From Prosthecobacter debontii (lineage in GTDB: Bacteria > Verrucomicrobiota > Verrucomicrobiia > Verrucomicrobiales > Verrucomicrobiaceae): a DNA stretch of 64,000 nucleotides. Below the pieces are notes generated by a model. The model was given only the letters and a program-made list of their open reading frames with translations, was not told the DNA's origin and searched no databases. The position numbers and the translations under genes were made by a program. Below, piece after piece: positions 2,200 through 5,860 of the stretch (the first letter of the stretch is position 1; each line of letters starts with the position of its first letter). The DNA is taken from NCBI RefSeq assembly GCF_900167535.1, contig NZ_FUYE01000007.1:1-64000 (forward strand), read 5' to 3'.

Positions 2200-3462
2200 T
2201 CAAGCCAACTGCGGAGCGACGGACCCATAGCCGCCAGGAAGATCTCCCTCCTGAACAGCTCTCCCCGGATTTTCAATGCGCCAGTGGCGCGGAACCTCCC
2301 AGGGCGCGAGGGCGGCGCAGGCTTTGGATTTAAACTCGGGCGTCAACTGCTCAGGGGATACCCCCACACAGGCCACCACATCCTGCACTCGTTCGGGATC
2401 ACGACTGGTCTGGCCATGCACCCGCACATGTCGAATTCCCGTGGCGGCTCGGATTTTATCACTGATGGCCGTGGGGCTCAGTTTCCGACTAGCCACATTA
2501 ATGCCGGGGCCTTCACAGCCCTGGTAACTCAGCGCCGAGCCTTCTAGCTGCACGCGATCCCACGTGCGGTGATGGTGGTGGTGAAACAATTCTCCCGGCT
2601 GCACAGTGTCATAGCCCATGCCCACAGCATCGCTATGCACCACCAGCCGCCCTTGTTCCAAGGTCGCGGTCACCCCGGGGAGCAGGTGGCCGATGTCGCT
2701 CGCCTCAGTACGCAGGGTTTCGCTGGCGTCGTAGCTGATGGCTCCTGTCTCGCTGGTGCCGTAGAGATTGTGCAGCTTCAGATGGAACGTTTCACGCACC
2801 TTCGCCTCTAGATCGAGCGTCAGGGGTGAACCCGCAGAAACAGCCAAAGCCACACGGGAGACATCCAATCCTGCAATCAACCATGCCTTCCACATGGCAG
2901 GAACCCCTGGCAAAAAAGCGCGCTCATGCATGGCCAGGGCCTCCACCATGCCCGCCGGGAAAGGAGTCGGCAACCAATGCGTGGCCAGCCCATTCAGCAG
3001 AGTTTGGAGAATCGTGGTCGTCAGCCCGAAGCTGTGCGCCACACTCAGCGGGGCCAAGGCCACCTGACAGCGATCCAGCTTCAGCGCTGCATAGAGACGA
3101 TCCACATCCGCCACGATCTGCGACAGGGTGAAAAACTGACAGCGGCGCATTCCAGATGCCCCCACGGTTTGTTTCACCACCGAGACAAAACGCGGCACAC
3201 AGCAACTCGGCACCCTGCGGGAACGATCTTTCTCGACGATCTGCACGGGCCTCCCGGTCAAAAAACCCGCCAGCAGAGCGACGGTGATCTCTGGACCGTC
3301 CCCCTGCGCCAAGTAAAAGCACCCCAGCCGAGCACAGAATTGAGAAGGATAAGACAACGCAGCCTTCTGCAGATCACGGAAGGTGAGGGCACCCCCCGGG
3401 TGCCAGAGGGCGATTTCGTCCCCTCGGGTGTCTAGGATTTGTTTCCAGCGGTCAGCAAACAT
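2200..3462 (-). CDS. AMP-binding (acyl-CoA synthetase/ligase-like) protein with degenerate motifs
   Basis: 420 residues, short for the ANL adenylating family (about 500-550). The core 'LYGTSETGAISYD' motif and the '..GIRHVRVHG..' C-terminal domain place it in the AMP-dependent synthetase/ligase family, which normally activates carboxylic acids as acyl-AMP. The phosphate-binding loop is altered: where 'TSGTTGxPK' is expected there is 'TVGASGMRR'. The C-terminal catalytic lysine region (usually 'xxxGKxxR') reads 'GRAVQEGDLPGG' and has no lysine. A natural run of five histidines follows 'GELF'. The gene is divergent from the double ketosynthase at 3587, which suggests a shared lipid or polyketide pathway. 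It may be a weak or non-adenylating relative. Confidence 0.75.
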   Translation of the reverse strand: MFADRWKQILDTRGDEIALWHPGGALTFRDLQKAALSYPSQFCARLGCFYLAQGDGPEITVALLAGFLTGRPVQIVEKDRSRRVPSCCVPRFVSVVKQTVGASGMRRCQFFTLSQIVADVDRLYAALKLDRCQVALAPLSVAHSFGLTTTILQTLLNGLATHWLPTPFPAGMVEALAMHERAFLPGVPAMWKAWLIAGLDVSRVALAVSAGSPLTLDLEAKVRETFHLKLHNLYGTSETGAISYDASETLRTEASDIGHLLPGVTATLEQGRLVVHSDAVGMGYDTVQPGELFHHHHHRTWDRVQLEGSALSYQGCEGPGINVASRKLSPTAISDKIRAATGIRHVRVHGQTSRDPERVQDVVACVGVSPEQLTPEFKSKACAALAPWEVPRHWRIENPGRAVQEGDLPGGYGSVAPQLA

Positions 3463-3586
3463 TTGAACTCTCTGCCGCGTGCGGCTAAACGGATTGGCGC
3501 GGTGTTTGAGCCAGGAGTGTGCCAGCCCACCACCGCGAGTTCAAGCTCGGGAATCCAGGTTCCCGTTGTCAGCGTTTCATTCTCTC
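3463..3586. promoter_or_regulatory. Divergent intergenic region with inverted repeats
   Basis: 124 bp separate the AMP-ligase-like gene (minus) from the ketosynthase fusion (plus) and must hold both promoters. Two inverted repeats are visible: TTGAACTC at 3463-3470 matched by GAGTTCAA at 3537-3544, and CGGGAA at 3548-3553 matched by TTCCCG at 3560-3565 with a 6-base loop. Either could be an operator or a leader hairpin. No consensus -35/-10 pair was identified with confidence. Confidence 0.35.
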
Positions 3587-5860
3587 GTGATCCCTGTTTC
3601 CTCTCAGCGCATTTTCGTCACCGGAGCCGGCATTGTCTCGCCTCTGGGGCTGGACTGGCGGGAAAATGAGGCCTCTTTTCGGGCAAACCGCACCGCCTTT
3701 CGCCCGGTCACTATGTTCGATGTGAGTGAGCGCATCGCAAAGACGGCCGCCCATGTAGATCTGCCCACCGAACGCCTGTTTCTGAAGACTCCACGACGGC
3801 GCGAGCATTTGATTGATCGCGGCACGAAGATGCTGCTCCTGGCGCTGCGTGAAACTTTGGCCACGGCCCGGATGCCTGGGCTGGAGGGTGTGGATGCCAT
3901 CATCATCGGCACCTCAGCAGGCGCTATGGGCATCGGCCAAGAATACTTCCGCCACGCGGCCAGCAGTCCGTCCAAGTTGCCCGGCCAGCTCTCACGTCTG
4001 GAGTTTTACCAGCCCCAGCGACAGCTCAATGCCATCGCCATGGAATATGGCTGGCACGGCCCCATGTTGCTCGTCTCCAATGCCTGTGCCAGCGGAGCCA
4101 ATGCCATTGGCGATGCCATGGCGATGATCCAGACCGGTAAGGCCAAACGCGTCCTGGCCGGTGGTTACGATGCCATCGCCGAGCTCGTGTATGCGGGCTT
4201 TGATACCCTGCGTGCCTTGGCTCCCAGCGGCATCCCTCGCCCCTTCGACGCTGCCCGTGATGGCCTCGCTCTCGGCGAAGGCGCCGCCCTAGTGCTGCTG
4301 GAAAGTGAGGAAGCCGCCACCGAACGTGGAGCCGAAGCCCTCTCCATGGCTGCCGGATACGCCACTGCCACCGACCTCCATCACCTTACGCAACCAGATC
4401 CCGAAGGGAAAGCCGCCATCCGCACGATGACTGGCGCCTGCGCCATGGCGGGGGTCTCGCCGAGTGAGGTCAGCTACATCAACTCCCACGGCACTGGCAC
4501 CCCCTATAACGACGTGGCCGAAGCTAGCGCCGTGAAAGCCTGGGCGGGTGACGACGCGGCCAAGATCGCGCTCAGCTCCACGAAATCCGCCATGGGCCAC
4601 CTGCTGGGCGGAGCCGGGGCCGTCGAGGCGGTGATCTGCCTCATGGCCATGCGCGGCCAGTGGATGCCGGGCAGTTTGAATGTCCGTGAAACCGATCCTG
4701 CCGTGTGTTTCGACCTCGTGCAGAGCTTCCGCGAGGCTCCTGTGCCCGTCGCTCTGACGAATAGCTTCGGTTTCGGCGGCACCAACGCCACCCTGGTCTT
4801 CACCTCCTTGGATCGCCCAGCAGCAAAGGCCTCTTCCCCACAATCTATCCCCAGCGCCCCGCTGCGCATTCGCGGAGCAGGTGTCGTTTCCCCTGCGGGC
4901 TGGAGCAGTCAGGCTCTCCTGCAGGCCGTGACGGAAAAAGCCGAATTGCCCACCACTGAGTGCACGCGCAGCATCGGCACCCGAGATTGGACCTGCCTCG
5001 TGCGCACCGCCCCCGCCGCCCCACTGGACCGACTGCCTAAATTCCCCCGCCTCCGCCGGGCCAGCCCCATCACCAAGTTCTCCATGGGAGCCGCGTTGGA
5101 AGCCCTGGAGCAAGCCGGGTTCCCCAGGGGTGAAGGCGCGGGACGCCTGGGCATCATCCAGCTCATGTTCAATGGCTGCGTGCAGTTCAGCGGCAAGTTC
5201 TACCATGAGGTCGTGGAGACCCCAGCCCTGGCCAGCCCGCTGATCTTCCCCGAGACCGTCTATAATGCCCCCGCCTCCCACGTGGCCGCTTACCTCGGTG
5301 TGGATGGCCCGGCCACCACGCTCATTGGCGAATCCAACGCCATCCTGGAAGGGGCGAGCATGGCCCACACCTGGCTGACGCAAGGCCTCGTGGATCATGT
5401 GTTGCTCATCGGCGCGGAGGAATGTGATTGGCTCGGCGCAGAGGCGACCAGCTACTATCACCCCGACCTCATCGCCACCGAGGGAGCCGGAGCTCTCCTG
5501 CTCAGTCTTCAAGGCTCGGGGCTCCAACTCCACCACACCCCCGCGCTCGCCTTCCATCACGAGGGTGAAAAAGCCGCACATCTCCAGGCCCTGGCTCTGC
5601 AGCCCGAGTTCAATCGGCCCCGCCACATCAGTGGCTTGGCGGGCATTCCCATGCTGGATCACTCCGAAGCCACCGCTGGCAATCGCCACGCCGAGGAGCA
5701 TCATCCCCGGCAGGTGCTGGGTGAAAGCATGGGGGCCGCCGGAGCCCTCCAGCTCGCCCTCGCCGCCACCCTAGCGAAACAGACCGCCGAGCCTGTCTCG
5801 GTGACCCTGCCGGGCAGTCTATGCGCGGTGTATGGCGCGGTGATTACGCCCGTGGGCTAA
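3587..5860 (+). CDS. Fused ketosynthase / chain-length-factor-like double KS protein
   Basis: 757 residues from a GTG at 3587. An earlier GTG at 3479 would add 36 unconserved residues, while 3587 starts seven codons before the conserved 'RIFVTGAGIVSPLG'. Two beta-ketoacyl-ACP synthase domains lie in tandem. Domain 1 (about 1-410) has the full Cys-His-His triad: C167 in 'NACASG', H301 in 'SHGTGTPYND' and H338 in 'GHLLGGAGA'. Domain 2 (about 425-757) starts with a second 'IRGAGVVSPAG' but has 'GESNAILEG' where the active Cys belongs, and 'ESMGAAGAL' where the second His belongs. It is therefore probably a non-condensing partner like the chain-length factor of type II polyketide or aryl-polyene systems. 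The neighbour at 2200-3462 may supply or bind the starter acid. No ACP, KR or DH gene is next to it. Confidence 0.85.
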   Translation: MIPVSSQRIFVTGAGIVSPLGLDWRENEASFRANRTAFRPVTMFDVSERIAKTAAHVDLPTERLFLKTPRRREHLIDRGTKMLLLALRETLATARMPGLEGVDAIIIGTSAGAMGIGQEYFRHAASSPSKLPGQLSRLEFYQPQRQLNAIAMEYGWHGPMLLVSNACASGANAIGDAMAMIQTGKAKRVLAGGYDAIAELVYAGFDTLRALAPSGIPRPFDAARDGLALGEGAALVLLESEEAATERGAEALSMAAGYATATDLHHLTQPDPEGKAAIRTMTGACAMAGVSPSEVSYINSHGTGTPYNDVAEASAVKAWAGDDAAKIALSSTKSAMGHLLGGAGAVEAVICLMAMRGQWMPGSLNVRETDPAVCFDLVQSFREAPVPVALTNSFGFGGTNATLVFTSLDRPAAKASSPQSIPSAPLRIRGAGVVSPAGWSSQALLQAVTEKAELPTTECTRSIGTRDWTCLVRTAPAAPLDRLPKFPRLRRASPITKFSMGAALEALEQAGFPRGEGAGRLGIIQLMFNGCVQFSGKFYHEVVETPALASPLIFPETVYNAPASHVAAYLGVDGPATTLIGESNAILEGASMAHTWLTQGLVDHVLLIGAEECDWLGAEATSYYHPDLIATEGAGALLLSLQGSGLQLHHTPALAFHHEGEKAAHLQALALQPEFNRPRHISGLAGIPMLDHSEATAGNRHAEEHHPRQVLGESMGAAGALQLALAATLAKQTAEPVSVTLPGSLCAVYGAVITPVG

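Follow-up and report, generated by a model that had tools for sequence, protein, structure and literature searches.

A covalently joined ketosynthase and chain length factor in Prosthecobacter debontii as the probable condensing unit of a dispersed polyene-type synthase

The window analysed here, the first 64,000 nucleotides of contig 7 (NZ_FUYE01000007.1) of the 6.3-Mb Prosthecobacter debontii genome, encodes a protein in which a ketosynthase (KS) is covalently joined to a chain length factor (CLF), next to a divergently transcribed, degenerate protein resembling an adenosine monophosphate (AMP) ligase, AMP1. It is likely, in our view, that condensation in a dispersed, polyene-type type II polyketide synthase (PKS) or fatty acid-like synthase is the task of this fused protein, with partners encoded in trans and with adenylation probably falling to a second ligase, AMP2. 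Literature searches turned up no account of the locus in Prosthecobacter.

A fused ketosynthase and chain length factor

The fusion gene (P0001) spans positions 3587-5857 on the plus strand, starts with GTG and encodes 757 residues, in which the domain search saw only KS and CLF domains and no dehydratase (DH) domains. The KS domain (residues 1-409, 3587..4813) matches the N and C ketoacyl-synt domains of Pfam at residues 7-366 and the FabF models of NCBIfam at residues 7-407, and is ~36% identical to the FabF-type KS of the family. Its aligned catalytic residues, C167 (4085-4087), H301 (4487-4489) and H338 (4598-4600), are invariant across 36 aligned KS domains. A linker rich in Ala, Pro and Ser (residues 410-421, 4814..4849), the length of which varies among relatives, leads to the CLF domain (residues 422-757, 4850..5857). 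The profile alignment pairs C167 with S583, a position held by Ser or Pro in several relatives, H301 with L684, and H338 with E713, an invariant Glu; with neither Cys nor His at the aligned positions, the second domain has lost all three triad residues. A preliminary description of the window, made from the sequence alone, had proposed a 757-residue covalent unit of a KS and a CLF-like domain with an intact first KS, and the open reading frame (ORF), domain matches and alignments agree with both points. Its statement that the second domain had lost the Cys and the second His is right for these two residues, but the count was short, since the H301 position is lost too.

The fused protein was modelled with AlphaFold2 (predicted template modelling score, pTM, 0.83; mean predicted local distance difference test, pLDDT, 75), with low confidence at linker residues 416-421. 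Among known structures, the model comes closest to the KS-CLF didomain of PfaC, from a polyunsaturated fatty acid (PUFA) synthase (6RIW, TM score 0.72 across both domains). Modelled alone, the CLF domain reached a pLDDT of 86, with the ishigamide CLF (6KXD chain B) as its top fold match. The first domain would perform decarboxylative condensation on a dedicated acyl carrier protein (ACP1), and the second would act as a non-catalytic CLF that shapes the chain pocket, tied covalently to the KS rather than supplied as a separate protein, so that a heterodimer-like pairing would form within one chain. The second domain might instead be a catalytic acyltransferase or starter-selecting domain with another nucleophile, making the protein a two-activity enzyme. 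The invariant E713, together with the invariant EE-D-W motif and the FPETVxNAP motif of the CLF domain in relatives, indicates strong constraint, and AmcF, a named acyltransferase subunit of cispentacin biosynthesis, is among the matches of the KS domain, under its cut-off. However, the triad is gone at all three positions, the top fold match is itself a CLF, and in relatives with separate genes this gene adjoins the KS gene, as KS and CLF genes do; we thus regard a second activity as improbable.

The family search covered 68 genomes, every one of which has some KS match. The fused ORF was found in 20 genomes of the genus (P. debontii counted; 63-84% identity), including the isolate Brevifollis gellanilyticus, and about as many genomes carry separate KS (~410 residues) and CLF (~340 residues) genes, adjacent and often overlapping. 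Since the fused ORF is conserved in 20 genomes, chance or a frameshift is excluded, and with it the sequencing-error fusion of a FabF pair that the preliminary description had named as an alternative. In a 50-row KS tree with class-level outgroups, the fused state requires four changes, at least three of them forced by well-supported branches: in the Prosthecobacter clade, in G011, in G086, and in G200 with G080. In an earlier tree that included Escherichia coli ApeO and ApeR and the genome's own KS references, the branches were too long to place these. The KS sequences of the family also form two distant groups (genera g1-g4 versus g6-g9), a split suggestive of an ancient duplication or transfer. 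Repeated natural fusions could serve as single-chain templates for the study and engineering of chain length control, where otherwise two chains must assemble.

A degenerate ligase and its intact counterpart

AMP1 (420 residues; P0002, 2203-3462, in the ORF at 2200-3462, minus strand) is separated from the KS-CLF gene by the intergenic region 3463..3586, and the divergent gene order is kept in most relatives, whether KS and CLF are fused or separate. Compared with an acyl- or aryl-AMP ligase (ANL enzyme), AMP1 has the AMP-binding domain (Pfam, 65 bits) with the A5 and A7 motifs, YGTSE and D302 being conserved, but not the remaining adenylation motifs, which are present in aligned relatives: the phosphate-binding loop (P-loop) reads VGASGMRR instead of TSGSTGEPR (about 3174-3136, minus strand), the hinge Asp is lost, and the A10 lysine is gone along with the C-terminus (residues 396-420, 2277-2203, minus strand). 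The ligase partner is thus degenerate, as the preliminary description had said of its P-loop and C-terminal lysines. The change from Lys to Arg in the P-loop says little by itself, since relatives with a preserved A10 lysine may also have Arg there. AMP1 has probably lost its adenylation activity. The protein also contains a run of five histidines (FHHHHHRTWD, about 2566-2580, minus strand) that is not found in the aligned relatives. An 823-residue ORF in locus L119, considered as a ligase fusion, was rejected as antisense read-through over the KS gene.

The degeneration is lineage-wide. P-loop, hinge and A10 are all affected at the loci that were read in genera g1-g4 and in family f2. At those read in g6-g9 and in families f3, f4 and f6 the motifs are intact, except for L108 (f3), the end of which is broken or unread; on the KS tree this amounts to a single change. 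AMP2, a second ligase that retains the P-loop and the A10 lysine, lies beside a flavin adenine dinucleotide (FAD) oxidoreductase in G026 and with a second ACP (ACP2) and the FAD oxidoreductase in G103, and has its P. debontii orthologue at C23:13515-14975. Within the family, AMP2 occurs in genera g1-g4 and g8; no genome of g5, g6, g7, g9, g10 or g11 has it. A few assemblies of g1 (G035, G050, G057) and the genomes without the whole pathway lack it as well. From this distribution we predicted that AMP1 would be complete in the then unread g5 and g11, and all six further loci (two from g5, two from g11, one each from g6 and g9) carry the A10 motif. Intact AMP1 and AMP2 are mutually exclusive in the family, with the exception of g8, where G012 has both.

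Starter activation was probably handed from AMP1 to AMP2, which would now activate the starter or acyl group, with AMP1 kept for a non-adenylating role such as starter binding or presentation, or keeping the KS-CLF complex together. A more specific version, which we offer only tentatively and hold to be rather doubtful, is that AMP1 is a retained pseudo-ligase gatekeeper that makes no acyl-AMP, binds the starter or acyl chain that AMP2 and ACP2 deliver, and passes it on to KS-CLF; if true, a genome-scattered polyene synthase would use a pseudo-ligase as partner of its covalent KS-CLF. The AMP1/AMP2 pattern offers, in any case, a testable example of activation moving between ligases while the first one is kept as a constrained pseudoenzyme.

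The loss of catalytic residues in AMP1 would also suit a pathway relic, that is, a degenerating cluster without product whose fusion, scattering and truncated ligase mark stages of decay; the dispersal of the genes and the complete loss of the pathway in five family genomes point the same way. Against this, nonsynonymous divergence (dN) from locus L036 is well below synonymous divergence (dS) for KS (dN 0.06, dS 0.95), CLF (dN 0.20, dS 0.94) and AMP1 (dN 0.18, dS 1.6, the latter near saturation), and by this measure all three are under purifying selection. The KS triad is moreover invariant, and the components are kept together across many species. We give the relic the least credence of the alternatives considered.

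Partner genes encoded in trans

The preliminary description had noted that no ACP, ketoreductase (KR) or DH gene adjoins the pair, and this is correct: every ACP or DH match in the genome falls on a different contig from the pair. It had also called the pair an orphan and suggested a search for trans ACP and reductase genes, and here the outcome differs, since the pathway to which the pair belongs has its KR, ACP, DH and accessory genes at other places in the genome and the pair is thus not functionally orphaned. Orthologues of a KR, an ACP, an LPG_synthase_TM membrane protein and a patatin are found at C2:430.9-433.8k, those of a dehydratase, a GT2 glycosyltransferase and a methyltransferase at C3:399-401.8k, and those of ACP2 and the FAD oxidoreductase at C1:341.7-343.2k. 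Comparable gene groups are found again in G016.

These genes were linked to the pair through relatives, the loci of which were read with codon-weighted gene calls. In other Verrucomicrobiales, and in the genera g7 and g9 of the family, KR and ACP genes come after KS-CLF, and a single region of G175 holds patatin, DH, AMP-ligase, KS, CLF, KR, ACP, LPG_synthase_TM, FAD oxidoreductase and ACP2. Whole clusters of class-level relatives comprise, among other genes, an acyltransferase, GT2, a methyltransferase, KS, CLF, ACP, a halogenase-like FAD enzyme and DH; acyltransferase and GT2 are found in both G608 and G454, and the G608 cluster adds an MMPL exporter (fused to a lipid A acyltransferase), LolA and an AMP-ligase that keeps its C-terminal domain. 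A further probable member, besides AMP2 (C23:13.5-15.0k), is a protein of 571 residues with an N-terminal ACP and an HxxxDG domain without Pfam match (G000:C2:314091-315803; L083 7092-8804, minus strand). It shares 36% identity with a protein that neighbours ACP2 and the FAD oxidoreductase in G103, and is tied to the pathway because in L142 (4842-9255, G012:C16) it stands in a row with KR, ACP1, a halogenase-like FAD enzyme and a second ACP1 copy. The protein is present in only 24 of the 68 family genomes.

Over 387 genomes of the order, CLF and the dedicated ACP are both present in 121 and both absent in 255, with CLF alone in six and ACP alone in five; two of these 11 exceptions, G042 and G057, have a KS fragment that stops at a contig edge. 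The DH orthologue is missing in the five family genomes without CLF and ACP (G044, G055, G056, G062, G063) and otherwise, within the family, only in two incomplete assemblies. The joint loss of CLF, ACP and DH in these five genomes is a direct observation. It also bears on the possibility of a self-contained condensing module, in which fused KS-CLF and AMP1 alone would borrow the ACP, KR and DH of housekeeping fatty acid synthesis. Such a module would fit the lack of adjoining cycle enzymes and the conservation of the divergent pair amid variable flanking genes. Yet the co-occurring ACP is dedicated and distinct from the fatty acid synthase ACP, the DH orthologue shares its losses, and in relatives the cycle enzymes are adjacent to KS-CLF, which makes a self-contained module very improbable.

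In the dispersed synthase that we favour, KR and ACP (C2), DH (C3) and ACP2 (C1) would complete the cycle of the fused condensing unit in trans, KR and DH would reduce and dehydrate the growing chain to a polyene acyl chain, and the products of the GT2 and acyltransferase-type genes may attach that chain to an envelope lipid. Cluster-finding software presumes co-located genes, and a pathway kept as small separate loci in many Verrucomicrobiales could thus escape notice or be taken for an orphan KS.

Relation to known systems

Aryl polyene (APE) synthases are among the nearest known systems. The ApeO-ApeC system with ApeH, ApeE/F, ApeQ and ApeI/P shares with the present one a KS and a non-catalytic partner, two ACPs, KR and DH, and a triad-bearing KS next to a triad-less partner is what was found here. 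AMP-ligase, methyltransferase and glycosyltransferase/acyltransferase genes are also shared, as are MMPL and LolA in the class-level relatives, whose gene set is like that of APE clusters (PMC8253772). In addition, an APE cluster was identified by antiSMASH in another verrucomicrobium, Oceaniferula flavus (PMC9865893). However, with 240 residues ApeC is only a half-size CLF, versus the full-size 337 here (PMC8358021). In APE systems, KS and CLF are separate and the genes form one contiguous cluster, whereas here they are fused, the genes lie on several contigs and are contiguous only in relatives, and the ligase is degenerate. We did not file the proteins as an ApeO-ApeC system because the CLF is full-size, the KS is equidistant from ApeO and ApeR, and scores lie below the NCBIfam cut-offs, with 265 bits against 407 on PRK09185, which we take to be an APE-type KS model.

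PfaC also carries dehydratase domains within a megasynthase, and the fused protein, having none, is not PfaC; at 18% identity, it is a stand-alone didomain with discrete partners. On the PfaA model it scores 66 bits against a cut-off of 1010. Covalent joining of KS and CLF in one chain is, nevertheless, common to both (6RIW; PMC12895367), so that the architecture, thought possibly undescribed in the preliminary description, is already known from PUFA synthases. The highly reducing type II PKS of ishigamide (Iga11-Iga12, 6KXD) has in common a full-size CLF and gives the best fold match for this domain, at 17% identity and with KS and CLF as separate chains. From the flexirubin-type pathway, the KR resembles FlxB (179 bits, under the cut-off of 340), and halogenase-like FAD enzymes accompany KS-CLF in relatives. 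The polyene subgroup of type II KS-CLF systems, a KS with a full-size CLF and discrete ACP, KR and DH, describes what was found, with partners in trans linked by orthology and co-occurrence. The system would thus appear to work like a polyene-type type II PKS.

Several points weigh against a dispersed polyene-type synthase. ApeC and the CLF domain have no detectable similarity (BLAST E value 0.48), and the KS is about as distant from ApeO (32%) as from ApeR (31%). The model of the fused protein is less confident around parts of the KS active site. A polyene acyl product is suggested because KR and DH are present and no enoyl reductase turned up in related clusters, no search aimed at a pathway enoyl reductase having been made. 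Co-occurrence p-values are inflated and uninformative, since the genomes are related and not independent. The FAD oxidoreductase is missing in 44 CLF-bearing genomes, and is therefore regarded as accessory. The AMP2 survey covered the genera of the family, with family f2, where AMP1 is also degenerate, outside it. Finally, MMPL and LolA were seen in clusters of class-level relatives, and export through them is putative in this genome.

Some further genes were noted. At L145:12390-15455, a polyene-type cluster encodes a protein of 1022 residues that fuses an MMPL exporter domain to a lipid A acyltransferase domain. A lone ketosynthase of 362 residues with Cys and His motifs (G000:C27:13605-14693; L004 1060-2148, minus strand) lies beside glcD-like and pyrR-like genes and far under every NCBIfam KS cut-off; its candidacy as an ApeR-like partner is unsupported, as it is distant and in an unrelated context. 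At G000:C11:72106-72861 (L001), a KS domain and an ACP domain are found within a separate open frame of 2582 residues, a probable type I PKS.

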